From: a virus
DNA length: 64,000 nt
Virus record (IMG/VR): IMGVR_UViG_3300031759_000004
Coordinates: 62,001 to 126,000 of that record
Reading direction: 5' to 3' (one strand)
Translations under genes and position numbers: made by a program
In this document: in pieces, positions 23,213-56,014 of the stretch
How the letters are laid out: each line of letters opens with the position of its first letter
Position numbering within the stretch: the stretch's first letter is position 1
The notes under the pieces: model-generated
What the model was told of the DNA's origin: nothing
The model's input: the letters and a program-made list of their open reading frames with translations, nothing else
The model's database searches: none

Positions 23213-23949
23213 ACGCCGCCCAGTTAGCCTTCAGCCTGTTGGAAACCGACGGCGAGTGGACGCCCGAGGGCTACACCCTGGTGGCCGCCGCCGACGTCGG
23301 GGACTACAACATGAAGCTCTGGCAGGGCAAAAAGCACATCAAGGGCGAGGAGGTCAAGTTCAACGAAATTTCGCTCAACCGGCGCGGCCTGTCGTTCGAC
23401 CCGGACAGCCAGCAGAAGCGCCAGGTGGGCGGACATCACGCGTTGGGCCACCGGCACGAGTTTCTGGACCTGGTGCGCAGCTGGATTTCCAAGTACGGCA
23501 CTCTCCTGGTCGGCAGCTACAACCAGGACAAGCTGAGCTTTTATCACCGGCTGCTGCGGCGCTACCTGCCCCGCGTACACGTGAGCGATCCATTTCCGCC
23601 GTTCGACGAATCAGAGGGTGTGGCCGACTACTTCACCATCGGCGACGCCAGGAACATCCGGCCCATGGGCGAGTCCGCTGAAAACGTAGACCCGCAGCGG
23701 TACATTGACGAATTGCCGTCTACTTTGGACCGGATGAAAGAGGCGGCTCTGGAGCGCTACAAGGAGTGCCTGCCGGGCATAAATCGGGATAATTTTTGCG
23801 ACTGGGCGGATGAAATTGCGCTCGCTATTGTATACGAGTTCATGCAACCAGATCAGCTTGAGCTGGTTGACAGTCGTGAATCGTTCAACTTAGCCTTCCA
23901 AGACCTGTCCGCCTACCTGGTAAAATATGCAGATTCCACCCTCCCCTGA
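23209..23949 (+). CDS. Hypothetical head-cluster protein with targeting-like peptide
   Basis: This encodes 246 residues from ATG 23209. Residues 1-12 end in F-S-L-L-E, again before an acidic segment. The body is a mixed alpha/beta protein with V-G-G-H-H-A-L-G-H-R-H near 75-85, a histidine-rich stretch that might bind metal. I do not recognise a family. It sits between the small core-type genes and the protease, so a head role is likely. It overlaps the next gene by 23 nt. Confidence 0.7.
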   Translation: MNAAQLAFSLLETDGEWTPEGYTLVAAADVGDYNMKLWQGKKHIKGEEVKFNEISLNRRGLSFDPDSQQKRQVGGHHALGHRHEFLDLVRSWISKYGTLLVGSYNQDKLSFYHRLLRRYLPRVHVSDPFPPFDESEGVADYFTIGDARNIRPMGESAENVDPQRYIDELPSTLDRMKEAALERYKECLPGINRDNFCDWADEIALAIVYEFMQPDQLELVDSRESFNLAFQDLSAYLVKYADSTLP

Positions 23950-27570: not shown

Positions 27571-28350
27571 ATGTACATGAGCTACACATCTAAGAATAAT
27601 CCAAAGCATGCGTACAAAGTACGTTGGAAGTACACAGACGAAGAGCTGATGGCATCTGCTGCGCAGTATCCGCATCGTTCGCACTGGAAGCGCTACGCCA
27701 ACAACCACTACCAGGCGGCTAGTTCAAGGGGCCTGCTTGACCGGTGTTGCGCCCACATGACGCCTATGGCCAGCCCGTTCGCGGCTGACTACGAAATCTA
27801 CGTGTACGAATTTGCCGACAAGCACGCGTACGTCGGGTTGACTTTCTTGCCACGAGCCAGGCAGTACGCGCACAAGGTCAGTGGCCCGGTAGCGGAGCAC
27901 GCTGATGTCTGTGGCACCTACACGCGCAAGGTTCTGGCCACGAGCTTGACCCGGGAGCAAGCTCCGGAGGCGGAGAAGCTGGCCATCGCGCAGTACAAGA
28001 ACGAAGGCTGGACCATGTTGAATCGGAATAGCGGAGGCTCTGTTGGCACTGTGCGTGGTCGCAAGTGGACCAAAGAGCTGATCGTGGCAGAAGCTCGGAA
28101 GTTCACTACCAGACAAGCCTGGATCGACGGCTCTCAGGGGTCTTACCGTGTTGCCAAGCGGGAGGGTTGGTTCGAGGAGGCCAGCGCCCACATGCCCAAG
28201 CGTGACGGCACTAGCCAGATCGGTCACAAGGTCTCAGCCGCCACACGGCGAAAGCAGTCAGCCGTAAAACTAGGCCGCCCGCAGACGCCCGAGCACCGCG
28301 CCGCCCGCAGCGCCGCCGTCAAGCTCTGGTGGGCTTCTCGGCGCGCGTAA
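27571..28350 (+). CDS. GIY-YIG homing endonuclease with two flanking DNA-binding repeats
   Basis: This encodes 259 residues from ATG 27571 (or 27577). The nuclease lies near residues 70-130 (Y-E-I-Y-V-Y-E-F, A-Y-V-G-L-T). On each side is a copy of the same module: about residues 20-63 and 166-208 both read W/Y-T-x-E/K-E-L then an A-rich helix, a W-x3-Q/S turn, a helix and H-M at the end. The C-terminus is basic. It sits directly after the capsid terminator, a typical homing site next to a conserved gene. Confidence 0.85.
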   Translation: MYMSYTSKNNPKHAYKVRWKYTDEELMASAAQYPHRSHWKRYANNHYQAASSRGLLDRCCAHMTPMASPFAADYEIYVYEFADKHAYVGLTFLPRARQYAHKVSGPVAEHADVCGTYTRKVLATSLTREQAPEAEKLAIAQYKNEGWTMLNRNSGGSVGTVRGRKWTKELIVAEARKFTTRQAWIDGSQGSYRVAKREGWFEEASAHMPKRDGTSQIGHKVSAATRRKQSAVKLGRPQTPEHRAARSAAVKLWWASRRA

Positions 28351-28366
28351 TTTGTTCTTCCAGGCT

Positions 28367-28981
28367 GTGAGCAATTTGCTGCCAGCCAAGATCGAACGGG
28401 TGTTCGCCGTCAGCCCGACCGGCGAAACCTCCGTCGTCAAGCCAGGGCCGCCCAAGAAGCTTTCCCTGGGCCAGCGGCACGCCGCCTGGCGCATCGGCCT
28501 GATGGCCGTGAACCAGTTCATGAAGGAGCAGGGCTTTGAGAGCGTCATCGGGGCCTCGACCACGCACTTCGGCTGGCTGAAGGGAGATTTCTCCGTCAAC
28601 GTCTCCCTGCGTCAGCCGTCAAACATCGCTTACGTCACCTCCTACGAAGGCTACGACCCGCACGCCAAGAAAAAGTCCCTGGGCAAGGACATCACCGGCC
28701 ACGAGATGTTTGGGGTCACGGCCCAGGTCACCACGCTCAAGGAGGCCCTGGGCGGCGGCAAGTACGTGCTGATGGTGGACGCGTCCACACTGAGCGGCAC
28801 GGCCAATCCTGTCTACATTCCGCTGGAAGCGGAAGACGACGGTGGCAAGCCCGCGCAGTACGTCTACAGGAACGTGTTGGGCGTCATCGCCATGATGGCC
28901 CAGGCGGACCAGGGGCTGAAGGACGCTTTCGCCGCCGACCAGGTCAGGCTGGCCCAGGAGCGCCAGGTCCAGCTTGACTGA
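28367..28981 (+). CDS. Conserved hypothetical protein, GTG start
   Basis: This encodes 204 residues from GTG 28367, preferred because GTTCTTCC, a variant of the start-proximal motif, begins 13 nt upstream; TTG 28352 would add 5 residues. The protein is alpha/beta with a basic N-terminus and a charged helical C-terminus. No family was recognised. The homing endonuclease stop lies just upstream, so this gene was probably next to the capsid gene before that insertion. A head or capsid-accessory role is only positional inference. Confidence 0.7.
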   Translation: MSNLLPAKIERVFAVSPTGETSVVKPGPPKKLSLGQRHAAWRIGLMAVNQFMKEQGFESVIGASTTHFGWLKGDFSVNVSLRQPSNIAYVTSYEGYDPHAKKKSLGKDITGHEMFGVTAQVTTLKEALGGGKYVLMVDASTLSGTANPVYIPLEAEDDGGKPAQYVYRNVLGVIAMMAQADQGLKDAFAADQVRLAQERQVQLD

Positions 28982-29132
28982 GCACAAATCGGTCCACTTC
29001 TCAGTTTCTGCCGGTAGGTAAACACCTGATAGGCACTTAGCTAAAAACAGGCTAGGGTCAGGTTCGTGAATTCTGTCTTTTGTTTTCGACCTGGTGCGCA
29101 TTGTAGCGACACCGCCCAACTCCTTTTAATTT

Positions 29133-29486
29133 ATGAACGATCAACAATTTGACGTGCTGTCAAAGCAGATTTCCGATTTCCGCAAGTCCATCGGAACGCC
29201 TGCAACCGTACAGGACCTGCAAAGAACGAAAGAACTAATAATGAGTGCAATCACAGACTGGGCGGCCACCGAAGATGCCGACCTGACGGGAATTCAAACG
29301 GCGCTGGCTGCCGTGGTCACGGGCATTTCAGCCTTGGATGCTGAAATTACCGCCTTCAACAACTCACCCGGGACCCTGAGCGCCGCCGACCAGGCCGCGC
29401 TGACTACCCTGAAAGCGCACAGTGCGGCGCTGGTGACCCAGGCGCAAGCCATCTCGACGGTCGCGCCCGTGGCTCCTGCGTCCTAA
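29133..29486 (+). CDS. Small coiled-coil protein, paralog of 2572
   Basis: This encodes 117 residues from ATG 29133. A helical first third is followed by M-S-A-I-T-D (Met codon at 29241) and an Ala/Thr/Asp-rich coiled coil with a Pro/Ala tail. The gene at 2572 has the same domain order. Short phage proteins beginning M-S-A-I are familiar to me, so the internal Met may be an alternative start. The 152-nt gap before it (28982-29132) has no gene and no clear promoter. Function is unknown. Confidence 0.7.
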   Translation: MNDQQFDVLSKQISDFRKSIGTPATVQDLQRTKELIMSAITDWAATEDADLTGIQTALAAVVTGISALDAEITAFNNSPGTLSAADQAALTTLKAHSAALVTQAQAISTVAPVAPAS

Positions 29487-29497
29487 GCAATCTGGCA

Positions 29498-29529
29498 GCG
29501 GGCTACTTGTAGGAGGAAGGGTAGCCCGC
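29498..29529 (+). other. Stem-loop after the coiled-coil gene
   Basis: GCGGGCTAC (29498-29506) pairs perfectly with GTAGCCCGC (29521-29529). No T-run follows, so it is more likely an mRNA 3'-end hairpin or a weak terminator. Confidence 0.55.
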
Positions 29530-29578
29530 CGCCAGCCTTAAACTTTTCGTTGTCAGAGGCTGGTGGTGTAACTATACC

Positions 29579-29800
29579 GTGGGACATAAACTCAATTTTC
29601 GAGACATCTGCTCAAAAGCTGCCGCCATCCGCTGCCGCCAGGGCGGCCAGTCGAACGCGCAGATCGCCAAGTCCGCCAAGGTGGCTCCCGGCACCGTGGG
29701 GAAGTGGGTCAACAAATCCGGGTTTAAGCTGCGGGGTGGCAAGCTGCGCCACCAGGCGGAGAGCGCCAGCGACATTGTAGACAAACTGTTAGACTACTAA
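29579..29800 (+). CDS. Small helix-turn-helix protein
   Basis: This encodes 73 residues from GTG 29579. Residues 23-50 form a helix-turn-helix (S-N-A-Q-I-A-K-S-A-K-V-A-P-G-T-V-G-K-W-V), with basic flanks suited to DNA binding. The end, D-I-V-D-K-L-L-D-Y, resembles the targeting-like peptides but at the C-terminus. Its stop is 15 nt from the parS-type palindrome, so it might bind that site and control the adenine methylase promoter. No ParB signature (such as the CTP-binding region) fits in 73 residues. Confidence 0.72.
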   Translation: MGHKLNFRDICSKAAAIRCRQGGQSNAQIAKSAKVAPGTVGKWVNKSGFKLRGGKLRHQAESASDIVDKLLDY

Positions 29801-29815
29801 GATAAACTTATTACG

Positions 29816-29831
29816 TGTTCCACGTGGAACA
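29816..29831. promoter_or_regulatory. parS-type palindrome (ParB binding site)
   Basis: TGTTCCACGTGGAACA is a perfect 16-bp palindrome. It matches the bacterial parS consensus (TGTTTCACGTGAAACA) apart from the symmetric C/G pair, and that form, GTTCCACGTGGAAC, is the one I know from Pseudomonas. It lies in the gap between the HTH gene and the adenine methylase. No ParA or ParB gene was seen in this window. Confidence 0.7.
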
Positions 29832-29883
29832 ATGCTGACGTTTAGTCATTTTTCAGCTGGCCACGGCTCGTCTGTGTGTGTTC

Positions 29884-29889
29884 TATACT
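29884..29889 (+). promoter_or_regulatory. -10 element of a leaderless promoter
   Basis: TATACT ends 6 nt before ATG 29896, the same geometry as the promoters at 3110 and 34607. No good -35 is seen. Confidence 0.5.
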
Positions 29890-29895
29890 GGCGAC

Positions 29896-30759
29896 ATGAA
29901 ATGCCTATTACGGTACCCTGGCGGAAAAAGTCGAATGCTCGGCGATCTACAGCCGTACCTGGTCGGAATGCTTAAAAATGAAACTGAGTACGGCGAACCT
30001 TTCGTCGGTGGTGGTTCGGTGGCGTTGCACGTGGCGCGCCATTTTCCAAAAATCAAGTTAAGGCTGAACGACAAAGACCCGCTCATAGCCGGGTTATGGC
30101 GCGTAATCTGCGGACCCTCTGCCGGTGTCAATCAGCTAATTAAACTGATTGATGTGGTGCCAACATTAAGCCTGTGGCGGTCCACCCGCAGCAGTGAACC
30201 CAAAACAGACTTGAATCGGGCTTTTAAGGCGATATTCATGAACCGAACCTCGTGGAACGGCATCGTACACGACTCACGTCCGATAGGCGGCCTGGAGCAG
30301 AAAAGTAAGTGGCCAATCGGTTGTCGCTATAACGTAGGCGCTTTAAGCGCCCTTTTAGTAGCCTACCATGAACTTCTGTCCGGACGCACTGTTGTGACGG
30401 AACTGGACGCTGTTGAATTTGTACGTCGATTCAGTTGTCCCTGCTTTATTGATCCGCCGTACCTTATGGACGGCAAAAATAAACTTTACGGCGTTAGCAT
30501 GACTGAAAGCGAGCACAGGAATTTTGCAAAAGCCTTGCGCACGCTGAGAAAGTGGGTACTGACCTACGATAATAAAGATAGGGTTGCCTGCGACTTGTAC
30601 TGGCGCGTAGACAAAAAGCTCATAGATACGAGATACTCGATGGACACAGCCCATCGCGCCCACCGCGAAGTAGTGGGAGTGGCTGAGTGGAAAAAAGCGA
30701 GCGAAATTTGCGCACACAAAGGTTTTTCTCTTGTTCTTAACGGCAGCGCTGAACTATAG
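29896..30759 (+). CDS. dam: DNA adenine N6-methyltransferase (Dam/D12 class)
   Basis: This encodes 287 residues from ATG 29896. It has the D12-class motifs: R-Y-P-G-G-K-S at 6-12 (SAM binding), G-E-P-F-V-G-G-G-S at 33-41 and the catalytic D-P-P-Y at 186-189. It methylates adenine N6 in a short target, protecting phage DNA from restriction or marking it; the target cannot be read here. GC content is lower than in structural genes, and it shares this with the ATPase gene that follows, so both may have been acquired together. Confidence 0.93.
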   Translation: MKCLLRYPGGKSRMLGDLQPYLVGMLKNETEYGEPFVGGGSVALHVARHFPKIKLRLNDKDPLIAGLWRVICGPSAGVNQLIKLIDVVPTLSLWRSTRSSEPKTDLNRAFKAIFMNRTSWNGIVHDSRPIGGLEQKSKWPIGCRYNVGALSALLVAYHELLSGRTVVTELDAVEFVRRFSCPCFIDPPYLMDGKNKLYGVSMTESEHRNFAKALRTLRKWVLTYDNKDRVACDLYWRVDKKLIDTRYSMDTAHRAHREVVGVAEWKKASEICAHKGFSLVLNGSAEL

Positions 30760-30813
30760 TCGGCGTGTAACCGGACTTGCTGGAATTAACCGGTGGGACT
30801 GGGAAAGGAAAAC

Positions 30814-32847
30814 ATGAAATATATGCAAATGGTGGGCGTCTACGCTCACATTAACCGAGCCTACGAATCTTCAGAGGCTTATCAATGGTCAAGAGAAGCC
30901 GCCGTAAACGCCCTCCAAGCTGGTGCGACTGATGTGCGGTTCGACGTGGAGTGGCAAGCAGTACGCAGCCAACAAGTGTACCGACGGCTTGTGGCCGACA
31001 ACGGATCAGGCATGAGTGCGCAGCAAATGCCAGCTTTTTTGAATAAATTTGGCGGTTCAGGCCGCACTATCGGAGCCATTACAGGAAACTACGGTGTAGG
31101 CTTTAAGAGCAGCGTACTGCCGTGGAACGGTTACGGTGTTGTGGTCATTTCCGTGGTTACGCTGAACGGGCGGATAGAAACCAATATGATGTGGCTTCAG
31201 AGGGAAGAGAAAGACGACGGTACCTTGGACTACGGCGCGCGGGAGCTGTTGTCTGATTATTTCGATGGGCGAGAAACTCAAGAAAGCGACGATTTTATCG
31301 GCGACTGGGTCTCCGGTTTTGGAAGAAACGAGGATGCTACAACAGTGATGCCATTGACACTGTTAAACGATTGCGGATACGTGCCTGAATTAGACGGTAT
31401 TAACTGGCTTAAAGTAGTCCCTAAGTTTGTGAAAGAGGCTGGGCACGGCACGGTTATCGTGCTACTCGGGCAGCGTGGAAAAGAACACACCATACTTGGT
31501 GACTTTAAGAGGAACGAACACGACACCAAGTACGGTCTTTGCCGCTACCTGAACACCCGTTTTTATTCTATTCCCGACAACTTCAAAATTACGGTTGCTT
31601 CCGTGGGAACAGAAGAGGCAAGAAAAAACTGGAATCAACCGAGCAGCTGGCCAACGGCACCTGGCACTGGAGGCATAAGCAGCAGGACAGTCATCGGCAT
31701 GAAAAAGTGTCTGGAGTCTTACGTTGTCGCCGCTACTAAAGAGGGCAAGGAGGCTAAGCGCGGTCAGACGCTGCTTAAAGCTGGCGCAGAAGTTCCTGTT
31801 AGTGTAGACACCTTGCTGCTGCCTGAGCTGGAAAAAAGCAGCGGCACCGTTGGTGGTGACAATCACTATGCCGCCGGTAATTATCCTTCACTTCCGCTCA
31901 TCGCTAGCATCTGGAAATGCCATCCCGACTTAGACTTAGTCGAAACTTTTAACGTGCGCATGCTGTCAGAGGGAAAAACTGCGCTTTTTGACTGGATAAA
32001 CTTAATGGATGTACGGCGACGTTTGGCTTTAATCCTAGAGCCGAAGGACGACGGTGACATCTGTGTTTTTGCGGATCAGTCCAGGCGCACTCTACTATAC
32101 CAAAGTAAGACTAAAGGTGGCGCGCCGCTGCCGGAGCTTGAGTGGGCGGCAGCCTACAGGGTAAACCGGCCTGACTTCATATCAAAAGCGGTGGACGCCT
32201 ACTTTGAAGGTTTAAGCGTAGATCGACCTGAAACGGATGCGAGCATCGTGGAGCACCTTAAGCAGTATTTTCCGTTCATGGCGCATACTGTCGTAGAAAC
32301 TCGACGCGCGGAAAAGAAACAGCCTGCTTACGAAAGATCGGATGAATCGGACGGCGACACCGACAGTGGTAATCGCGGCGGTTACCGCTTGCCGGGACAT
32401 TTGGGCGGTCGCGGCAGGGATTTTCAAAATAGTCGAGGCTTGATAACCGTTAATAAGGGTACAGTAGAAGGAGGATTTCCGGTAGAATGGAATACAGATC
32501 AAAAAGAGCCTAGAGGCATTGTAGACATGACACATCCTCTAGTCAAAGATGCGTGGGACATGTGCGAACTCAAGCTAAGAGCCGACGGTGTGGATGACGG
32601 CGCTGAAATGACTAGCTACCGACGAGCTTTTGAGAGCCAGGTAATCGGGCACGTGAGCTTGGCTATGACGCACATTTACGCCTACCTTAAGGCCAACAAA
32701 ATGAAAAACTCGGATGAATTGACAAAGCCCAGCGCGCTACTGTCTATCGTAGCTGGCATAAGGCATTTGCACCAAGCCTCGCAAGGGCCGTTCGGCACGA
32801 TTAAAGGTGGAAGAGCGAAAGTCAAAACCGCTTGCCCGGTCAACTAG
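30814..32847 (+). CDS. GHKL (Hsp90/MORC-like) ATPase
   Basis: This encodes 677 residues from ATG 30814, chosen because AAAGGA lies upstream, one of few good Shine-Dalgarno sequences here. The GHKL fold is clear: N-box E28 and N32, D-N-G-S-G-M at 62-67, and the lid G-V-G-F-K-S at 94-99. The remaining 550 residues are of unknown fold with a charged, Gly-rich linker near 505-545. MORC- and Hsp90-type ATPases act as clamps on DNA or protein, and similar bacterial ones occur in defence systems. Position after dam and low GC suggest an accessory module. Confidence 0.82.
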   Translation: MKYMQMVGVYAHINRAYESSEAYQWSREAAVNALQAGATDVRFDVEWQAVRSQQVYRRLVADNGSGMSAQQMPAFLNKFGGSGRTIGAITGNYGVGFKSSVLPWNGYGVVVISVVTLNGRIETNMMWLQREEKDDGTLDYGARELLSDYFDGRETQESDDFIGDWVSGFGRNEDATTVMPLTLLNDCGYVPELDGINWLKVVPKFVKEAGHGTVIVLLGQRGKEHTILGDFKRNEHDTKYGLCRYLNTRFYSIPDNFKITVASVGTEEARKNWNQPSSWPTAPGTGGISSRTVIGMKKCLESYVVAATKEGKEAKRGQTLLKAGAEVPVSVDTLLLPELEKSSGTVGGDNHYAAGNYPSLPLIASIWKCHPDLDLVETFNVRMLSEGKTALFDWINLMDVRRRLALILEPKDDGDICVFADQSRRTLLYQSKTKGGAPLPELEWAAAYRVNRPDFISKAVDAYFEGLSVDRPETDASIVEHLKQYFPFMAHTVVETRRAEKKQPAYERSDESDGDTDSGNRGGYRLPGHLGGRGRDFQNSRGLITVNKGTVEGGFPVEWNTDQKEPRGIVDMTHPLVKDAWDMCELKLRADGVDDGAEMTSYRRAFESQVIGHVSLAMTHIYAYLKANKMKNSDELTKPSALLSIVAGIRHLHQASQGPFGTIKGGRAKVKTACPVN

Positions 32848-32853
32848 CAGAGC

Positions 32854-33784
32854 TATGAAGCTATTGATTTGCGGCGGTCTCTACGGCTCCGAGGGCAAGG
32901 GCTGCGTGGCCGATTACTTCGCCCGGCAGACCCAAGCCCTGGTCGCCTTCGCCGAGTCCGGCCCCAACTCCGGCCACACCAACTCAGCCTGGTGTACCCA
33001 CTGCCTGCCCTCCTGCGCCATGCGGGCCAACGCCACGCTGATCGGGCCGGACGCGGTGATCGACCTGGACCAGCTGGCCCGCGAGCTGGCGCAGCTGCCA
33101 AAGAATGCTCGCGTCTACGTCCACGAGAACGCGGCCATCACCCTGCCTGACGACCGCGTCGCGGAGCAAGAGCTGGGCTTGGGGCGGAGCATCTCCAGCA
33201 CCTGTACCGGCAGCGGGTACGCCCGGTACAAAAAGTATACGCTAAGGCAGCCCAATGCCGTGGCGGGCTACTACCCAATCCCAGGCGTAACCGTCGTGAA
33301 GTCGGCGGAGTGGCTGGACCTGGTGGAGGAGCTGTCCAGTTTCGACTGGATCGTCGAGGGCAGCCAGGGAGCGCTGCTGGACACCAACTTTGGCGTGTAC
33401 CCGTACGTGACCAGCCGGTCAACGCTGCCGCTGTCCATTATCGGGCGCAACGGCTTGTCCTGCTTCAACTGGACCATCTGCTCGGTGTACCGGACGCTGC
33501 CAATCCGCACGGGCGGCCCCAGCGGCCCCTGTGGCGGCAAGGAGCTGACCTGGGTTGAGCTGAAGCTGGAGCCGGAGATCGCCTCCACGACCAAGCGCGT
33601 GCGCCGGGTATTTGAGTGGTCGGAGAGCGACTTCAAGCTCAGCCTGCGGCTGACGCGTCCGGATGTCGTGGCCATCACGCACCTGGACTACGCGACTGAC
33701 GCGTTCGTGGCCGACAACATCAGGTCCCATTTCCACGGCACCGTGATCGGCAGCCGCCAGCCTGCAAAGTTCACGTACCTTTGA
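32854..33784 (+). CDS. Adenylosuccinate synthetase family, PurZ-like
   Basis: This encodes 309 residues from ATG 32854. The fold markers are clear: G-L-Y-G-S-E-G-K-G at 8-16 (PurA: W-G-D-E-G-K-G), N-S-G-H-T with H41, S-T-C-T-G-S-G, V-E-G-S-Q-G, and Y-R-T-L-P-I-R-T-G-G-P-S-G-P-C. The catalytic Asp of PurA (D13 in E. coli) is Ser12 here. As I recall, this change marks phage PurZ, which uses dGMP to make the precursor of 2-aminoadenine (Z). Length is below PurA (about 430). High GC contrasts with the two genes before it. Confidence 0.85.
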
Positions 33785-34013
33785 CCGGCTGCTTGGCCAG
33801 GAATTCCTTCGCCGATTCGGTAAACGATTTGCCGCACCAGGGGCAGTAGTGCATCGGCCACATGGTGATGTGCGTGCCGTTGGCGGCGGCCAGTTCGCAC
33901 GCCAGGTTGAGGGTGTGGACGCCCTCCACCATTTTGTCGCAGCACTCCGCGTCTTTGGTCGTGACGTCGGGCGCGCCCGGGATGTCAATGGAAACGAGTC
34001 GATTCGTGATCAT
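33771..34013 (-). CDS. Small zinc-ribbon-like protein
   Basis: This encodes 80 residues from ATG 34013. Cysteines at C-C near 24-25 and C-P-W-C-G-K near 57-60 with nearby His residues form a likely zinc site. The last residues are basic. It overlaps the end of the PurZ-like gene by 14 nt in convergent orientation. GTTCTAGC lies just upstream of its start, as at 6047. Function is unknown. Confidence 0.65.
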   Translation of the reverse strand: MITNRLVSIDIPGAPDVTTKDAECCDKMVEGVHTLNLACELAAANGTHITMWPMHYCPWCGKSFTESAKEFLAKQPVKGT

Positions 34014-34017
34014 GCCC

Positions 34018-34025
34018 GCTAGAAC
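34018..34025 (-). promoter_or_regulatory. GTTCTAGC start-proximal motif
   Basis: On the minus strand GTTCTAGC begins 12 nt before ATG 34013. The plus-strand GTAGTTAG for the divergent gene at 34049 lies only 12 nt away. Confidence 0.5.
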
Positions 34026-34036
34026 TGAATTTGTCC

Positions 34037-34044
34037 GTAGTTAG
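34037..34044 (+). promoter_or_regulatory. GTAGTTAG start-proximal motif
   Basis: GTAGTTAG begins 12 nt before GTG 34049. It decides the start, since a TTG 18 nt upstream also opens the frame. Confidence 0.55.
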
Positions 34045-34048
34045 GGGC

Positions 34049-34555
34049 GTGAGACAGAGACGACTTGCCGTGGTTAAAGCGCGTATCGCGCAGTTGGACG
34101 CTGAGTATGACCGCCTGGACGGCCTGGCGCAGCCCACTGCGCACGTATCCGCCGAGCTGAAGGCGCTCAACAACGAGCTGGACCTCCTGCTGCACCGGCC
34201 ATTTACGAACGCCAAGCTGGAAGAAGCGCTCAAACGCGGCAAGCCGGTGGCCCTGGTTGATGCGCTCCTGGAGGCCGGGCCGTTGCGCACGCTCCGCGAT
34301 CTGCAAGCCATGCCCGACGACCAGCTCTACCGCTGCCACGATGCCAGCGTGGCGGAACGGCACAAGATTCAGGTGCCGTTCCAGTGCGGCTGCCGCCAGT
34401 GGATGGGAGCAGGGGTCGTGCGCGTTGAGTTTTACTCCAACCGGGAAAATGTGTTCGGCAGCCAAAGGTACCAGGACAGCGACCACGCCAGCATCAGGAC
34501 CCTGGAGCCGGTGCCGGGCGAGACGTGGCAGTTCGACATCCTGCCCAGTTTTTGA
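34049..34555 (+). CDS. Hypothetical protein
   Basis: This encodes 168 residues from GTG 34049. The first 60 residues form a basic coiled coil. A helical segment containing V-A-L-V-D-A-L-L-E-A follows, and the C-terminus has C-G-C near residue 114 and a beta-rich end. No family was recognised. It is divergent from the zinc-ribbon gene at 34013 across a 35-nt gap that holds a motif for each gene. Confidence 0.68.
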   Translation: MRQRRLAVVKARIAQLDAEYDRLDGLAQPTAHVSAELKALNNELDLLLHRPFTNAKLEEALKRGKPVALVDALLEAGPLRTLRDLQAMPDDQLYRCHDASVAERHKIQVPFQCGCRQWMGAGVVRVEFYSNRENVFGSQRYQDSDHASIRTLEPVPGETWQFDILPSF

Positions 34556-34571
34556 CGGGTTAAAGCTTAAA

Positions 34572-34600
34572 TTGACATCGACCTGTCGATTGTATACATT
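34572..34600 (+). promoter_or_regulatory. Strong sigma70-type promoter, leaderless
   Basis: TTGACA (34572-34577), 15 nt, TATACATT (34593-34600). Taken as TACATT the spacing is 17. ATG 34607 is exactly 6 nt beyond. It is the best match to consensus in the window. Confidence 0.8.
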
Positions 34601-34606
34601 TTTAGT

Positions 34607-35206
34607 ATGCGTGCCGATCAGCTAGTGACGAAGCTCCTGGACCTGCCCACCCTGGGCCAGCTCCGGGAGTCGCCCCAGTATTACCCAGGTCCCTTCGCCT
34701 ACCAGCGAGATTCCGGCTTCCGGCCCCTGTCGATGGACAACTACTGGGCCTGCCAGCTGATGACCCAGGATGCCGACTACGCCTACGCCCTTTCCCCGGC
34801 GGGCAACTTCGGCTACGTGTTTTCCGTGCCTGACACCGAGAACCCGCCAAGGACCGGCATCGTTCCGGTCATGACGGTTCAGCTGCGCCCGTCCAACATC
34901 AAGGGCTACATGCAGGCGCACCGGCTGAGCATCCGGGAGAGCTTCGCCCGGGGCGGCGTGGCGACGCGCTGGTATTTCAGCTACGTCCAGTATGCGGGCG
35001 GGGTGGTCTCCGATTTTGAGCACCTGGAAGGCGGCAAGCGCCTCTGGAAGTCGTTCGTGCGCACGGCGACGGATCACGGGCTGAAGATTTCCCTGGTGGA
35101 CAGCCGCACCGGCGAATGGCTTCCGGTAAGCCCGCAGTCGCCGGACGAGGCCATCTGGTCCCTGGACAAGACACTGTACCCGGTCGTGCTGGTGCTGGAG
35201 CGCTAG
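34607..35206 (+). CDS. Hypothetical protein, early-type promoter
   Basis: This encodes 199 residues from ATG 34607. It begins M-R-A-D-Q-L-V-T-K-L-L-D, similar to the targeting-like peptides but with Asp for Glu, then becomes an alpha/beta domain rich in Tyr, Phe and Arg. No catalytic motif was recognised. The consensus promoter suggests host-polymerase expression early in infection. The stop lies within CTAGTTAG, the motif for the next gene. Confidence 0.72.
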   Translation: MRADQLVTKLLDLPTLGQLRESPQYYPGPFAYQRDSGFRPLSMDNYWACQLMTQDADYAYALSPAGNFGYVFSVPDTENPPRTGIVPVMTVQLRPSNIKGYMQAHRLSIRESFARGGVATRWYFSYVQYAGGVVSDFEHLEGGKRLWKSFVRTATDHGLKISLVDSRTGEWLPVSPQSPDEAIWSLDKTLYPVVLVLER

Positions 35207-35210
35207 TTAG
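35203..35210 (+). promoter_or_regulatory. CTAGTTAG start-proximal motif
   Basis: CTAGTTAG begins 10 nt before ATG 35213, and its first TAG is the stop of the preceding gene. Confidence 0.5.
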
Positions 35211-35212
35211 GC

Positions 35213-35470
35213 ATGGCCGAATTCACACCCTGGGCGCTGGCGCAGCCGCGAAACCCGCCGCCCATCAGCAAGGTCACGGTATACGCCCGCGACCCTTACA
35301 ACTTCAGCTGGCGCACGCCGGACGGCACCATCATTCCCGCCGTAGGGCCAAACGCTGCCGGGGCGACGAATCCCACGTCGGTGCCGACGATTCAGTCGGT
35401 GGAGATCATTCCGGCCCCTGGGGTGCCTGACTACGGGGTCAACGGGCCAGGCCAGGAGCAGGCGATGTAG
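35213..35470 (+). CDS. Small Pro-rich hypothetical protein
   Basis: This encodes 85 residues from ATG 35213. It is rich in Pro, Ala, Thr and Val, with a short beta-type core (S-K-V-T-V-Y-A-R-D-P-Y-N-F-S-W) and no helices of note. The first part could be a small structural domain and the rest is disordered. Its stop lies in the GTAGTTAA motif of the next gene. Function is unknown. Confidence 0.62.
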   Translation: MAEFTPWALAQPRNPPPISKVTVYARDPYNFSWRTPDGTIIPAVGPNAAGATNPTSVPTIQSVEIIPAPGVPDYGVNGPGQEQAM

Positions 35471-35474
35471 TTAA
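35467..35474 (+). promoter_or_regulatory. GTAGTTAA start-proximal motif
   Basis: GTAGTTAA begins 14 nt before ATG 35481, with TAG as the upstream stop. Confidence 0.55.
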
Positions 35475-35480
35475 TACGCT

Positions 35481-35705
35481 ATGGCCAATAAAAATTTTGA
35501 TCCAAACGCTCGCTACGACAACGGACCCAGCGCCGCTGGCTCGGGCCGCATCTCGACTCCCGCGCCCACGACCAACAGCGGTCTGGCCACGGACAACACC
35601 GTGACCAACTCGAACATCGAGTGCGGTTTCAACTGCGCGGGCAACCAGAAAAAGAACAACGGCCCCAATGTGGCCGGTAATCCGCGCAGCTACAACAACA
35701 CCTAG
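35481..35705 (+). CDS. Small Asn/Gly-rich hypothetical protein
   Basis: This encodes 74 residues from ATG 35481. Asn, Gly, Ser and Thr dominate, with a C-G-F-N-C pair near residues 48-52. It looks disordered or a small decoration-type protein and resembles the 68-residue product at 6982-7188. It ends at 35705, directly against the convergent gene at 35706. Function is unknown. Confidence 0.62.
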   Translation: MANKNFDPNARYDNGPSAAGSGRISTPAPTTNSGLATDNTVTNSNIECGFNCAGNQKKNNGPNVAGNPRSYNNT

Positions 35706-35930
35706 TCAGCTGTTGGTGATGCCGTGCTCGGCCTGGATGTGTTCCTTCAGGCGGGCCGACTTGCGTTGGAGCGAGTCTAGGACATCGCGCCAGTCTTCGT
35801 CCGGCGTCACCTGGGCCGTCAGGTCGAACTTGACGGATTCGTAGTTGCCGATGTTCACGGACATGCCGTAGCTGACCTGGATGATCTTGGTCGGCTTGCG
35901 GGGCGGTTCGGGTGCTTTAGCTTCAGCCAT
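35706..35930 (-). CDS. Small conserved-type protein of unknown function
   Basis: This encodes 74 residues from ATG 35930. The core V-S-Y-G-M-S-V-N-I-G-N-Y-E-S-V-K-F-D is a beta hairpin pattern I associate with a widespread small bacterial/phage family of unknown function, followed by a helix. It lies downstream of the DUF932 gene across a terminator on the same strand, with GTCTAC in the leader but no -35. Confidence 0.68.
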   Translation of the reverse strand: MAEAKAPEPPRKPTKIIQVSYGMSVNIGNYESVKFDLTAQVTPDEDWRDVLDSLQRKSARLKEHIQAEHGITNS

Positions 35931-35943
35931 ATAAGTGTAGACG

Positions 35944-35971
35944 AAAAAGGGCTGGCCTCGCAGGCCAGCCC
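35944..35971 (-). terminator. Rho-independent terminator (minus strand)
   Basis: A 10-bp stem (35949-35958 with 35962-35971), 3-nt loop and CTTTTT on the minus strand, directly after the DUF932 gene. Confidence 0.9.
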
Positions 35972-35979
35972 TGTTTGTT

Positions 35980-36783
35980 TTAGTTCGTGGCCACGACCGC
36001 TGCGTCGACTTCCACCGTGCCCGCCGTAACCTTCTCCGCTGCGGTCGTGGTGGCGAAGCCCACCTGGGCGTCCATTAAACCGCTTAGACGGATGGACCGT
36101 TGCGGCAGAAGGGTCAGGCTGGTCTCTTTGTAAACTTCCGTGAACGCGTTGTGCAGACGCCAGGCGGACTTGTCCTTGGCAAATTCCGGGTGCCGGGGCG
36201 TGCGCCATTCCTTGAGGATGGACGGAATCTGCTGGAGCGTGCAGGCGTTAATGTCCGTGGCGCGGATGATGAAGTCGTGGGCGGTGGAGTCGGTCAGCAT
36301 CGTCTGCTTGTACTGGGCGATGCGGTCGTTCATGACGGACCACTTCTGGGCGAGCAGCCCGACGGCGTTGCCGGTGAGCTTCGGGAGGTCCTGCTCGATG
36401 AACCGGGTGTGCTTGCGGGCGATGGTAATCTCGCCGCTGAAGCTGAGGTTGTCGCACACGAACACGCTGGCCCCGACGGCGAGGGAGGCGGTGAAGGCTT
36501 TGTCGTGGGCGTTGCGCAGGCCCAGGACGTAGGCGTAGTCGTCCGCCGTCTTCTGGCAGTTGGCCACGCGCAGGAGGCCGAAGTAGCGGTCGCCGTTCTT
36601 GGTGAGCGCGTGCGCCTGCTCCATGACGCGCATGTTCAGGCTGCCCAGCGCCTGCTCGACCCGGGAGATCAGGGTCTCGTGGGCGATGGGATACCAGGTA
36701 TCGGTGGGCGAGGGGGTTTTGACTTCCATGACCTGTTCGCGCGTCACGTTGTGGGCACCGCAATGTAGCATCAGACCGTTCAT
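35980..36783 (-). CDS. DUF932-family protein
   Basis: This encodes 267 residues from ATG 36783. It has the DUF932 layout: W-Y-P-I-A-H-E-T-L near 31-39, a helix, Y-F-G-L-L, L-G-L-R-N-A-H-D-K near 88-96, V-F-V-C-D-N-L-S-F-S-G-E near 107-118, then K-H-T-R. The family is common on plasmids and phages and its function is unknown. It has its own promoter (36838-36866) and terminator, so it is a single-gene unit, probably early. The leader of about 50 nt has no gene. Confidence 0.85.
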   Translation of the reverse strand: MNGLMLHCGAHNVTREQVMEVKTPSPTDTWYPIAHETLISRVEQALGSLNMRVMEQAHALTKNGDRYFGLLRVANCQKTADDYAYVLGLRNAHDKAFTASLAVGASVFVCDNLSFSGEITIARKHTRFIEQDLPKLTGNAVGLLAQKWSVMNDRIAQYKQTMLTDSTAHDFIIRATDINACTLQQIPSILKEWRTPRHPEFAKDKSAWRLHNAFTEVYKETSLTLLPQRSIRLSGLMDAQVGFATTTAAEKVTAGTVEVDAAVVATN

Positions 36784-40836: not shown

Positions 40837-42783
40837 TCAGCGCCAGCGGATGGTGCTGGCCACCTGGTCGCGCTTGTGCTTCTCCACGATCAGCACGTGG
40901 TCGGCGTAGTTGGCGGCCACCGGGTTGTGGTCCACCAGGAACACCAGGATGCCCAGGCGCTGGGCCACGTCTTTCATGTAGCTGTAGATGCTCTGGCATA
41001 CCTTCGGGTCCTGATGGGGCAGGATTTCGTCATACCACCGGAATCCCAGCCGCCGCGAAACCTGGCCGACTTCGGACAGCGTTTCGGCGATGATGAAGTT
41101 GGTCAGGCCGCCCTCGCCTTTGGAACTGCCTGCCAGTTCCTTGTCGCCCAGTTTGTTGTCTACTTCCACGTGGAGCTGCGCCTTCTCCTGGCCGCTGGCC
41201 AGCTCCCGGACCGTGCTGAAGCGGATGTCGATGGTGCCGCCGGTCATGGCCGCTGACACGCGCCGGGCCTCGTGGTTGAGCGGTCCGATGGCTTCCCGCA
41301 GCACCAGGTTGGGAATGCCGTAGGAGGAGAAAGCGGTGTACCAGTATTTGATCACCTTCGCGGTGAAGTCATTCTGGGTCACGCTCACCGCCGCCGCGTC
41401 CAGCTTGTCCTGGCACTTTTGCAGGTACGCCTTGGAGGCTTTCAAGGTGGTGGCCGCTCTGACCACGTTGCTGTCCGAGGGCGGCGCTTTCAAGCCCGCC
41501 AGTTCCACGTCCAGGTCTTGGACGCGGTCTTCGTTGGCGTTTTGCTTTTCGACGAGGTCCTCGTAGTCGTCCGACAGCTGCTTGACCTCGTCGCTGGCCG
41601 ACGCTTCGCTGAACTCCTTGCGCAGGTCGCGCAGCGACTGCTGCTTGGCCTTGATCTTCTCGTTAAGCTGGCTGAGCTGTTCGTTGATCTCGTTGAAGGC
41701 GTTACAACCCTTCTGGTAGGCAGCTTCCAGCTCCTGCTGGCGCTCCGGGTCCAGTTTTCCACGGGGCCGGTTGCAGGTCGGACAGTTGGCCGCCGAGGAC
41801 AGGTAATTCTGCCTGGCGGTGCGCGTGGTGGACATGGTCTCCTGGCGCGTGTCACGTGTTTTAAGGAGTTTTTCCTTTTCGTCGTCCAGGGCGGTCAGGA
41901 CGTCTTCTACCTTGTGGATGTTGATTTCAATGTCGTGGGACTTTTTGGCGCGCTCGTCCTCCATGAGTTTCAGCTGGGTCTTGATCTCCTGCATTTTGGC
42001 GCTGATCTCCTTCAGGCGATTCTCCAGATTGACTTTGCGCTGGCGTACTTCGTTGATTTTGGCCTCGTGGTTGTCCAGGTTGCGCTGGTGCTCTTCTTTG
42101 GCGGCCAGATACGCGTCCTTGGCCGCGTCCAGGTCGCGCTGGGCGTCGGTTAGGTTTTCGATGGCGGTGGCGTGGGCCTGGCTGTCCTTGGCGGCGGTAA
42201 CCTGGAACTCGCCCGACTTTTTCTTCAGGATTTCAAAGTAGCTGGACCATTCTGGCTGGCGGAGCGCCGCCATGACGAGGCTGACGCTGTCCGCCTGGGA
42301 CAGCCGATTGAACTTGAGCCGCTCGCCGTCGATGAAGGCCGTCCAGTCCGCCAGCTGCGGAGACACGCCCAACAGCTTGGCCAGCTGGGCGCGTGTCTCC
42401 TGCATGCGCCCGCGCTCGACCCGGGTGCCGCCGTGGGTGTAGCTCAGGGCCTCGCCGGAGCTTTGAAATTCGTCGCAGGCGTACCCGGCTTCCACCAGCA
42501 GCGGCTTGCCCAGCAGTTCGGCCTCCAGACGGACGTACAGGTCGCCCTGCTTGTCCAGGCTATACTGCTTGGCGCTGGTGAACCGGCCTGTGATGCCCAG
42601 CAGGGTGCGGCACAAAGCTTCGCCCACGGCGGTCTTACCCGATCCCACCGAGGCCAGGGCACCGCCGGAGGCGGTGTTGAGGCCCTGGACCAGGATCAGG
42701 CCCTGGTCGGGGAACTCCAAATCCACATCACGGAACTTCATCCAGTTGCGCATTTTCAGGCGCTTGAGTTTTAAGTCAGCCAT
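40837..42783 (-). CDS. 46: gp46-like SMC/Rad50-type recombination nuclease subunit
   Basis: This encodes 648 residues from ATG 42783. The ATPase head has Walker A ending G-S-G-K-T at 47-51. Residues 185-330 and 345-440 are antiparallel coiled coils joined by the zinc hook C-P-T-C at 334-337. The C-terminal head has S-S-K-G-E-G-G in place of the ABC signature and a D-E near W-Y-D-E. T4 gp46 (560 residues) pairs with nuclease gp47 to resect DNA ends; no gp47 gene is seen here. It stands on the minus strand between tail genes, preceded by GTTCTAAG. Confidence 0.9.
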   Translation of the reverse strand: MADLKLKRLKMRNWMKFRDVDLEFPDQGLILVQGLNTASGGALASVGSGKTAVGEALCRTLLGITGRFTSAKQYSLDKQGDLYVRLEAELLGKPLLVEAGYACDEFQSSGEALSYTHGGTRVERGRMQETRAQLAKLLGVSPQLADWTAFIDGERLKFNRLSQADSVSLVMAALRQPEWSSYFEILKKKSGEFQVTAAKDSQAHATAIENLTDAQRDLDAAKDAYLAAKEEHQRNLDNHEAKINEVRQRKVNLENRLKEISAKMQEIKTQLKLMEDERAKKSHDIEINIHKVEDVLTALDDEKEKLLKTRDTRQETMSTTRTARQNYLSSAANCPTCNRPRGKLDPERQQELEAAYQKGCNAFNEINEQLSQLNEKIKAKQQSLRDLRKEFSEASASDEVKQLSDDYEDLVEKQNANEDRVQDLDVELAGLKAPPSDSNVVRAATTLKASKAYLQKCQDKLDAAAVSVTQNDFTAKVIKYWYTAFSSYGIPNLVLREAIGPLNHEARRVSAAMTGGTIDIRFSTVRELASGQEKAQLHVEVDNKLGDKELAGSSKGEGGLTNFIIAETLSEVGQVSRRLGFRWYDEILPHQDPKVCQSIYSYMKDVAQRLGILVFLVDHNPVAANYADHVLIVEKHKRDQVASTIRWR

Positions 42784-53144: not shown

Positions 53145-53686
53145 TGTTACCGCGTCCAGTTGGGTTTGTGTCCATCTCCAAGATAACCTTGGCGGACGGC
53201 CAGGAGCTGTCCACGCAGCAGGCCGTCGACTACGGCTGGATCAAGGCACCCGCCGGGCGGCAGCCCGCTGGCTGGGGCCTGGAGCGCCACGAGGTGCCTG
53301 TGGGCAAGAATCTATTCCTCGACCAAGGCCGCCAGGCCATGGCTTTTGCTTTCGGGGGCCGCAGCCCGACGGTCAACTACGCCATCAGTTTGTTTGCCAT
53401 CGGCACCGGCACGACGGCGGCCCAGGTGACGGACGTGGCGCTGGCCGCGCCCATCCTGTTCCCCAGCTCGCTGTACCACAAGGCCGTGGACTCGATTGAC
53501 TACATGTCGCCTTTCGTGGTGCGCGTAGCTTTCACCATCGGCACCACCGAGGCCAACGGCACGCTGATTAGCGAGATGGGCTTGCTGACGGGCGGCCAGG
53601 CGCTGGTGACCCGCAAGGTCCGCGCCACCAGCATCAACAAGACTTCAGATTACGCGCCCACGCTGACCTGGAGAATTCGATTTTAG
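53141..53686 (+). CDS. Virion structural protein, tail-associated
   Basis: This encodes 181 residues from ATG 53141 (or 53144). It is beta-rich, with F-G-G-R-S-P-T-V-N-Y, F-V-V-R-V-A-F-T-I-G, E-M-G-L-L-T-G and V-T-R-K-V-R near its end (S-D-Y-A-P-T-L-T-W-R-I-R-F). I recognise this as a conserved structural protein of large phages, probably of the baseplate or tail fibre. It lies in the sheath-tube operon. Confidence 0.75.
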   Translation: MMLPRPVGFVSISKITLADGQELSTQQAVDYGWIKAPAGRQPAGWGLERHEVPVGKNLFLDQGRQAMAFAFGGRSPTVNYAISLFAIGTGTTAAQVTDVALAAPILFPSSLYHKAVDSIDYMSPFVVRVAFTIGTTEANGTLISEMGLLTGGQALVTRKVRATSINKTSDYAPTLTWRIRF

Positions 53687-53688
53687 CT

Positions 53689-54015
53689 ATGAACAAACTT
53701 ATCCAGAAAATTATCGGCGAGGCCGACATCGAGGCCACCACGCAACACAGCGCAGTACCCGGAGAACTGGATGGCGCTATGACCCAAATTCGTGAGCGCT
53801 TTGTTGAGGAACGAGTTCATGGCTTCAAGGACCCGACAACAGGCCAAGCTGTTGGTCCCGTGAGCCGTGAACAGGCGGAAGCGGCCTGGCAACGCATTGA
53901 GCCTCAGCTCAGGCGGTTATTTAGGCAGGCGGAACCCGGCAGTGAAACGAGCCGGATGTTGGGCTTGCACCAGAGCCGGGACGTGTACAACTACCGGAAT
54001 CCCAACGCACAGTAG
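53689..54015 (+). CDS. Small protein with capsid-targeting-like peptide
   Basis: This encodes 108 residues from ATG 53689, 2 nt after the preceding gene. Residues 1-11 (M-N-K-L-I-Q-K-I-I-G-E) are nearly the same as the starts of the head-cluster proteins at 21693, 21905 and 22916, although the gene lies among tail genes. The rest is helical and polar. If the peptide is cut after Glu11, the mature product would be 97 residues. A head-internal protein is inferred. Confidence 0.72.
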   Translation: MNKLIQKIIGEADIEATTQHSAVPGELDGAMTQIRERFVEERVHGFKDPTTGQAVGPVSREQAEAAWQRIEPQLRRLFRQAEPGSETSRMLGLHQSRDVYNYRNPNAQ

Positions 54016-54019
54016 TTAG
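54012..54019 (+). promoter_or_regulatory. GTAGTTAG start-proximal motif
   Basis: GTAGTTAG begins 11 nt before ATG 54023, with its TAG as the preceding stop. Confidence 0.55.
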
Positions 54020-54022
54020 CGT

Positions 54023-54376
54023 ATGATTGCAACCGTCACAGACAGCCAATTCGTCGGCGAGACTTTGTCTACGCTGTTCAGCGTCATCCAGCAGGGTCCG
54101 GCCAGCTTGATGGTGACGATGAAGAATAGCGGCGTCAACACGCTGAATTATGATTTTCAGGAATTCAACGGCACCTCCTGGGCGGACCTGGGCGCGCCGG
54201 GCAGCCTGCTCAACAACACGCTGATGGCCAACCAGGTGATCCAGCTGATCGTGACCTCCACGTATCCGCAGGTTCAGCTGGTAGGCAACGCCTCCGGCGG
54301 CGCGCTGTTGGAGTTCACGGTGGTCCGGTACTACAACCGGGCCAGCGGCGGAGCGCTGCCGCTCATCGCCGTCTAG
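54023..54376 (+). CDS. Small beta-rich virion protein
   Basis: This encodes 117 residues from ATG 54023. It is almost all beta, rich in Ser, Thr, Asn, Val and Leu, without Cys. Similar composition and the L-M-V-T-M-K-N segment relate it loosely to the 157-residue protein at 45251. A head-decoration or fibre role is possible. Its 3' end overlaps the convergent exonuclease gene by 14 nt. Confidence 0.66.
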   Translation: MIATVTDSQFVGETLSTLFSVIQQGPASLMVTMKNSGVNTLNYDFQEFNGTSWADLGAPGSLLNNTLMANQVIQLIVTSTYPQVQLVGNASGGALLEFTVVRYYNRASGGALPLIAV

Positions 54377-55196
54377 TCTGGTACTCCTCGTAGACGCGGC
54401 TGTACAACAGGCCGATGTTGGGGATACCGAGCGATTTGGCTTCCGCCACGGAAGCCAGCTGCAAACGTCCCGGATCAGGTACGTCCGGGACGTTGGTTTT
54501 TAAGCGGGTCAGCTCCAGGCACGCCAGGAACTGCTCCTGGCACTCCGGCGGCATTTGGCTCAGCAGCGCCGCCTTGGCCTCCTCGAACGTCATGTCTGGA
54601 TTTACCTTACGGAACAGCTCGCGGCACTTTTTAGGACCCCAGCCATGAACGCCCTTGATGTTGTCCACCGGGTCGCCGGTGATGGCCTGAACCAGCGCCA
54701 CCTGGCTGGCCCGGGGCACGCCCCATTTTCGCCGGATGTAGTCGGGCGAGAGGATGGTCTTGGTGTTCAGGCAATAGTAATGGATGTTCCCTCGCTGAAG
54801 CTGTTGCAGGTCCTTGTCACCCGAGACCACGTAAACTTCGTCCGTTTTGGCGGCGCGTACTGCGGCGGTTGCCACGACACTGTCTGCCTCGTACTGGTCG
54901 TGTTCAAAGTTGACAGTGCCAAAGAGGAACGCCAGAACATCTTTAACGGCTTCCTTGGTGTCATGATATACCTTTGGTTTGGTTTCTCGGCCCTTGTTGC
55001 TGGAAATGTTTTTGGGGTCCCAGCCGAACAGGGTCCGGTCTACGTACACCCCAAGTTTGTCGATGTCGGGATTCAGCAGGATCAGCAGTGAGCGCACCAT
55101 CAGACTGACCGCGTCCAGCGGTTCCCCGCCGCTGCGCTCGGCGGCGTACCAGGACCGGGCAAAAATACTATTTGCGTCAAAGCAGGCTGTTATCAT
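54363..55196 (-). CDS. 5'-3' exonuclease / RNase H-type (FEN family)
   Basis: This encodes 277 residues from ATG 55196. Metal-binding acids are visible at D8 (C-F-D-A-N-S), in Y-E-A-D-S-V-V-A near 103-110, and V-S-G-D-K-D-L near 124-130. The H3TH motif G-D-P-V-D-N-I-K-G-V-H-G-W-G-P-K follows near 170-185. T4 RNase H (305 residues) has the same order and removes RNA primers. It is transcribed against the tail genes and is divergent from the HNH endonuclease 14 nt away. Confidence 0.92.
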   Translation of the reverse strand: MITACFDANSIFARSWYAAERSGGEPLDAVSLMVRSLLILLNPDIDKLGVYVDRTLFGWDPKNISSNKGRETKPKVYHDTKEAVKDVLAFLFGTVNFEHDQYEADSVVATAAVRAAKTDEVYVVSGDKDLQQLQRGNIHYYCLNTKTILSPDYIRRKWGVPRASQVALVQAITGDPVDNIKGVHGWGPKKCRELFRKVNPDMTFEEAKAALLSQMPPECQEQFLACLELTRLKTNVPDVPDPGRLQLASVAEAKSLGIPNIGLLYSRVYEEYQTRRR

Positions 55197-55210
55197 GTGT
55201 AGGTACTGGT

Positions 55211-56014
55211 ATGAAAAAGCTAACGGTGCTTAAAAATAAATTTCCACCAGGCACTAGAACAGGAAAGCTAGTCGTCAAAGGCTACGAAAAATACGGCAAA
55301 CCTCCGTATTTTTGGATGCTCGTTTGTCGCTGTGACTGCGGCAATATAATTAGGGAAAGGCCGCACAGACTCATGGCTCGAACAGTTAAAAGCTGCGGCT
55401 GTAGTTTTGCTGGGTGCGCAACTGACAGGTTCAAGTCTACGTATCCAACAGGCTTAAAGTTCGGACAGCTTACGGTGATTGGCTATGATATTAAACCTTT
55501 TGAAACTGCGCAGCGCAATGGAAGTACAGTTGAACGACGCGTCATCTGTGTCTGCGCGTGCGGCAAGAAAAAGTCAATAGCGGTAAAATCGTTAAAATGC
55601 GGAGGAACCATCAGCTGCGGCTGTGTGGGGATCAAGAACAGGGTAGCGGCGGCAAAACGAGCATGGTCGTTACCTCCTGGTACCGCCTCGTTTAACGCAG
55701 TCTACGGTCAAGTCAAAAGACAGGCGGTGAACCGGGGTATAGCGTGGGTTTTGACCCCGGATGAATTTAAGCGCGTCGTAGCTGAAAAATGTTTTTACTG
55801 CGGAGCGCCGCCGTCAAAGTCGTACCGTACTCGTACATCAATCGTAGATTTTGTATACAACGGTATTGATCGTCTGGATTCTGGCTCTGGCTACACTGTC
55901 AGCAACTGCGTGCCCGCGTGCAAAGTGTGCAATTATGCCAAAAACACAATGAGTGTAGACGAATTCAAAACATGGATTCGCAACATATCAGCTCATTTTC
56001 TCGGGCTGCGCTGA
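55211..56014 (+). CDS. HNH homing endonuclease with zinc-ribbon repeats
   Basis: This encodes 267 residues from ATG 55211. Residues 10-75 and 80-150 are two related DNA-binding modules, each with C-x-C and C-G-C type cysteines (C-R-C-D-C-G and S-C-G-C; then C-V-C-A-C-G and S-C-G-C). The HNH nuclease lies at 195-260: C-F-Y-C-G-A, N-G-I-D-R-L-D, N-C-V-P-A-C-K-V-C-N and K-N. The gene is AT-rich and inserted between the exonuclease and gp26-like genes; its stop is adjacent to the stop of the frameshift extension at 56015. Confidence 0.88.
   Translation: MKKLTVLKNKFPPGTRTGKLVVKGYEKYGKPPYFWMLVCRCDCGNIIRERPHRLMARTVKSCGCSFAGCATDRFKSTYPTGLKFGQLTVIGYDIKPFETAQRNGSTVERRVICVCACGKKKSIAVKSLKCGGTISCGCVGIKNRVAAAKRAWSLPPGTASFNAVYGQVKRQAVNRGIAWVLTPDEFKRVVAEKCFYCGAPPSKSYRTRTSIVDFVYNGIDRLDSGSGYTVSNCVPACKVCNYAKNTMSVDEFKTWIRNISAHFLGLR

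Follow-up and report, generated by a model that had tools for sequence, protein, structure and literature searches.

In the Z phages described, purZ generally comes together with enzymes that deplete dATP and with a polymerase that prefers or permits Z. The window analysed here, 64,000 bases corresponding to positions 62001-126000 of a linear virus record of 129,045 bases, holds a purZ-like gene whose P-loop carries the serine typical of PurZ. The locus raises the question of whether this phage has a 2-aminoadenine (Z) genome, as the original prediction proposed from that substitution, or whether the enzyme serves another purpose.

Identity of the purZ-like gene

The gene runs on the plus strand from an ATG at 32855 to a stop at 33784 and, by its open reading frame, family and fold, encodes a Ser-type succino-2-aminoadenylate synthase homologue of 309 amino acids; the earlier span had the same stop but began one base early, at 32854. 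The protein matched PF00709 well over the cut-off (E = 5.4e-26) as well as the PHROG family of 2-amino-adenylosuccinate synthetases (E = 1.5e-44), and codon usage was in line with that of other genes of the phage. Host contamination was rejected, as phage genes flank the gene on both sides and an identical sequence occurs in three contigs, the region being found at 100% nucleotide identity in two further IMG/VR contigs. Excluding these identical copies, the best relative among viral contigs, bacterial genomes, phages and plasmids was no more than 36% identical, and no other Ser-type protein that was found is as divergent. Scans for promoters and terminators yielded nothing useful beyond the level of shuffled sequences.

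The P-loop reads GLYGSEGKG (32876..32902, plus strand), with Leu9, Ser12 and Glu13. The catalytic Asp13 of PurA is thus absent and Ser12 is present, as originally described, and the catalytic His41 (codon 32975..32977, plus strand) is indeed kept, within PNSGHT. Ser was found at position 12 in 101 of the 114 aligned proteins and Asp in all 12 PurA references. Nine columns split Ser-type proteins from PurA, and the purZ-like protein is Ser-type in every one of them (S12, E104, S115, R188, R213, P216, I217, S223, Y279). It also has the conserved residue in 20 of the 22 columns that do not vary at all among approximately 100 other Ser-type homologues, despite an overall identity to them of about 30%, which excludes a chance resemblance. 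The two exceptions are Leu9 and Thr219, where all other aligned Ser-type homologues have Gln and Val, respectively.

Among NCBIfam models, PurZ (NF038379) gave the best score at 154.6 bits, short of its curated cut-off of 300 bits, followed by archaeal-type PurA (110.8) and bacterial PurA (80.1). An AlphaFold2 model built on 46 sequences was confident (pLDDT 91.3, pTM 0.89), and a Foldseek search of the PDB ranked the PurZ proteins of S-2L and phiVC8 at the top (TMq 0.85-0.86), with PurZ0 (7VF6, 0.79) and then archaeal PurA (0.78) below. In a PurA/PurZ tree, the check that had been suggested along with the original prediction, the protein joined PurZ with a support of 99/92 and fell outside the actinophage PurZ0 clade, on a terminal branch of 2.79 (2.8-3.1 changes per site) that was the longest in both trees built. 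Approximately unbiased (AU) tests rejected none of the other placements (PurA, p = 0.076; PurZ0, p = 0.10; bacterial clade, p = 0.21). Taken together, the analyses support a position on the Ser-type PurZ/PurZ0 side, apart from PurA, as had been proposed. An identity as ordinary PurA was rejected on residue pattern, family scores and fold, the tree placement leaving PurA formally unrejected. Two phages of 176-191 kb with weak tblastn matches have the Asp and were set aside as PurA-type.

Substrate and donor pockets compared with known systems

Thr219 (codon 33509..33511, plus strand) aligns with V241 of S-2L PurZ, which lines the dGMP pocket and is described as standing where it would hinder the 2'-OH of a ribose (PMC8342488). 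Ala50 of the same pocket corresponds to Ser39, a change seen in about one in ten of the relatives, and the remaining dGMP-pocket residues (G11, S12, N38, T116, Q171) are kept. Since the otherwise invariant Gln9 and Val219 are both altered, the substrate may differ from dGMP.

At the donor site, T-H-L-D (residues 275-278; 33677..33688, plus strand) forms a PurA/PurZ0-like guanine-binding motif resembling the T-K-L-D of PurA. Its Asp278 aligns with Q308 of S-2L PurZ and N297 of phiVC8 PurZ, residues that would clash with the guanine 2-amino group (PMC8342488); the Asn/Gln found at the nucleotide-base position in most ATP-using PurZ is absent. Glu13 is likewise as in PurA and PurZ0, and Thr in most PurZ. 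Based on Glu13 and T-H-L-Asp278, GTP is the predicted phosphate donor, a reading of the sequence that is not clean because seven PurZ-clade contigs combine Ser and Thr with Asp at the 278 column. The Ser12-Glu13-Asp278 combination, typical of PurZ0 and the bacterial Ser-type proteins, was found in 33 aligned proteins, the query counted, and Ser-Thr-Asn/Gln in 57 PurZ-clade members.

Compared with PurZ/DgsS of cyanophage S-2L and vibriophage phiVC8 (NF038379; PDB 7ODX, 6FM1), the protein shares the Ser-for-Asp P-loop, the PIR motif, the catalytic His and the fold, but is only about 30% identical and differs at positions 9, 13, 219 and 278; DatZ, MazZ and DpoZ were not found in its phage. With PurZ0 of actinophages (Gordonia phage Archimedes, PDB 7VF6) it has Ser12, Glu13 and the guanine-binding Asp in common, from which GTP use is predicted; however, it is shorter and lies outside the PurZ0 tree group, although that grouping is formally unrejected, and its phage has no DutZ or DmtZ match and a polymerase outside the PurZ0-phage group. 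Archaeal-type PurA (Pyrococcus horikoshii, PDB 5K7X) shares the short family form and the T-x-L-D guanine-binding motif, whereas its P-loop has Asp and it lacks the PIR/SGP residues common to the purZ-like protein and PurZ. The bacterial Ser-type proteins have Ser12, Glu13 and Asp and a similar aspartate loop (STTKR), but are fused to a kinase-like domain, form a separate clade and come mostly from chromosomal or MAG contigs. The purZ-like protein is thus mixed, nearest to PurZ in fold and tree with a guanine pocket like that of PurA and PurZ0.

The fusion proteins (in bacterial genomes L093-L120, L122, L123 and L126, except L096; on a phage contig L050) measure approximately 540-650 aa and occur in Myxococcota, Acidobacteriota, Planctomycetota, Chloroflexota and Proteobacteria. 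In each, the Ser-type PurZ-like domain is joined to an N-terminal extension, which was P-loop kinase-like (AAA_18/AAA_33/CPT) in the three tested. Their clade is well supported and carries the GTP-type signature. L096 and L121 belong to the PurZ clade and lack the fusion. On a Sinorhizobium medicae plasmid (L135 4989-7051), the gene that comes after a Ser-type PurZ-like one gave a weak dCTP-deaminase/dUTPase-like match, so that the pair recalls purZ0-dutZ, and a Chloroflexota protein of the same clade (L161) has Gly at the Asp/Ser site. Because Ser is also found in chromosomal bacterial proteins, mostly kinase-like-domain fusions, Ser12 by itself need not mean Z-DNA.

Partner genes, polymerase and accessory island

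A recent survey of 147 phage PurZ sequences distinguishes two subgroups by their typical partners: dutZ is present in all PurZ0 genomes, and most PurZ phages carry DatZ and a MazZ-type enzyme (PMC12884076). All six-frame ORFs of at least 60 aa in the 129-kb record were searched with iterated profiles of DatZ, MazZ-1, MazZ-2, DutZ, DmtZ and PrimPol, which we had built on 90 PurZ-type loci, and no profile gave a match. The Pfam YfbR-like (PF12917) and dUTPase families, the latter covering the dutZ expected of PurZ0 phages, were equally without a match in the record, and positive controls were found. Among the 90 loci, DatZ profiles matched 74, and most PurZ0 loci had dUTPase or DmtZ-type matches in place of DatZ. 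The protein therefore fits neither the PurZ nor the PurZ0 set, neither set of partners having been found, and the absence of DatZ, MazZ and DpoZ that had been noted for the window extends, by profile search and polymerase tree, to the whole record. As the record is linear and possibly incomplete (relatives measure 199-211 kb), partner genes could sit in a missing part.

The phage encodes, outside the window, a family-A polymerase of 1148 aa (G000 33002-36448) that was nested among those of its relatives in the polymerase tree, nearest an SPO1-like phage, with both Z-phage polymerase groups lying elsewhere; DpoZ identity was rejected by this placement. The polymerase is shared by relatives, with 48-64% identity along the main part of the match, and no PurA-family gene was matched in their records, which are possibly partial. 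The phage further has a MazG-like NTP pyrophosphatase gene (G000 23362-23871), different from MazZ-1 and MazZ-2, that three of these relatives share. The purZ-like gene does not adjoin replication genes. Klenow makes no distinction between A and Z, and most polymerases are reportedly just as relaxed (PMC8342488); S-2L needs DatZ for the exclusion of A since its polymerase does not exclude it (PMC8065100). By eye, the long N-terminal region of the polymerase resembles a Cys-containing uracil-DNA-glycosylase domain, and in one relative (G022) the polymerase gene is seemingly split by intein-like insertions (an open frame of 1915 aa with three matched pieces).

Synteny with a relative (L179) places the gene in an accessory island (29801..35212) that holds a methyltransferase gene, a GHKL ATPase gene, the purZ-like gene and three small genes. 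The island is bounded by g111 on the left (29579..29800, plus strand; L179 13039-13236) and g118 on the right (35213..35470, plus strand; L179 13243-13491). The gene order g107-g111-g118-g119-g120-g121-g122-g123 is conserved in L179, where the matches to g111 and g118 are only 6 bases apart and the 5.4-kb island is thus absent. Other genes occupy the site in four relatives (L178, L183, L184, L185). In the variable site of a further relative, L187 12531-15425 has low-complexity repeats (ARS.VLVLS / GSL..GAL in translation).

Directly upstream of the purZ-like gene, across a gap of 7 nt, lies the gene of a 684-aa GHKL (Bergerat-fold) ATPase (30793..32847, plus strand), preceded by that of a D12-class adenine-N6 DNA methyltransferase with DPPY kept (29878..30759, plus strand). 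The adenine methyltransferase noted earlier as an adjacent dam gene is thus real, but the ATPase gene separates it from the purZ-like gene. A first guess that the ATPase was rIIA-like was dropped, there being no PHROG match, and PADLOC matched neither it nor the purZ-like protein. An ATPase homologue (46%) lies beside DNA methyltransferase genes in G022, which has no purZ. Lower G+C (0.50-0.53) and atypical codons of the methyltransferase and ATPase genes, against a purZ-like gene that matches the phage in G+C (0.60-0.65) and codons, suggest that the three probably have differing histories. Elsewhere in the phage, outside the window, we observed a TROVE/Ro60-like protein (G000 53541-55238), and a patatin-like phospholipase gene with two FkbM-type methyltransferase genes (G000 41638-42522 and 28250-29540).

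Proposed function and its alternatives

The best explanation, to which we assign a probability of roughly 0.45, is a functional, highly divergent Ser-type synthase of the PurZ side, carried as accessory cargo, that acts on dGMP and leads to partial 2-aminoadenine. From established PurZ chemistry, the enzyme would most likely join dGMP and aspartate, with GTP as the donor, to give N6-succino-2-amino-dAMP (dSMP). Host adenylosuccinate lyase and nucleotide kinases could then yield dZTP, which the ordinary family-A polymerase, probably non-discriminating, would incorporate in competition with dATP. With no removal of dATP, partial substitution is the natural expectation, so that the outcome would be at most partial; a plausible purpose is anti-restriction, beside the adenine methyltransferase of the same island. 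A different substrate is possible given the altered pocket. We hold more tentatively that the protein represents a third, deeply divergent Ser-type synthase, using GTP, with a re-gated pocket, borne as phage cargo without a Z-cluster and giving partial 2-aminoadenine or another purine product.

The same altered pocket underlies a more doubtful proposal, that the synthase has been repurposed away from Z-DNA and that Leu9 and Thr219 admit another purine nucleotide (e.g. GMP or a modified nucleotide), for a small molecule or pool change in counter-defence or metabolic takeover, perhaps like the bacterial Ser-type homologues. Both residues are unique among the approximately 100 aligned Ser-type homologues, Thr219 replaces the Val credited with keeping out a 2'-OH on the ribose (PMC8342488), and the long branch, the missing Z-cluster partners and the existence of bacterial kinase fusions point the same way. 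However, Thr and Val are almost isosteric, the other dGMP-pocket residues are retained and PurZ is the nearest fold. The long branch and the two changed invariant positions might also be signs that an acquired purZ is decaying or has become an inactive relic. This is improbable for a gene whose frame is open and whose codon use is that of the phage, and for a product that keeps 20 of 22 invariant residues and has a confident predicted fold.

That the phage has a full Z genome, with the DatZ and MazZ roles filled by unrecognised or missing genes, is more improbable still. Ser12, the possible incompleteness of the record and the MazG-like enzyme, which could make dGMP, are compatible with it, but the record has no match to DatZ, DutZ or DmtZ, the MazG-like enzyme and the polymerase are common to relatives without a PurA-family match in their contigs, the polymerase lies outside both DpoZ clades, purZ does not adjoin replication genes and the island itself encodes an adenine-N6 methyltransferase. 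The claim that the substitution marks a diaminopurine genome is accordingly not supported, the purZ-like gene being island cargo missing from relatives and Ser12 being bacterial as well, and the doubts voiced with it, about missing partners and a nearby adenine methyltransferase, were sound. Least probable is an ordinary PurA boosting adenine nucleotides, with Ser12 neutral or convergent: the AU test and the PurA-like guanine pocket would allow it, but the protein has lost the catalytic Asp and carries nine residues specific to the Ser type, PurA family models trail PurZ by a wide margin and PurZ is the better fold match. Since no usual partner genes were found, the phage probably has partial substitution or a different purine-modifying role, not a fully Z genome.

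What is new here is a PurZ-side enzyme with a PurZ0-like donor pocket and no partner set detected in the record. It serves as a warning that the Asp-to-Ser change alone is no ground for calling a Z genome. An orphan enzyme of mixed type, in a large phage whose close relatives have the same polymerase without purZ in their contigs, is a test case for the usefulness of PurZ on its own. Such an orphan could stand near the beginning of Z-DNA evolution; alternatively, Ser-type synthases may also do something else.
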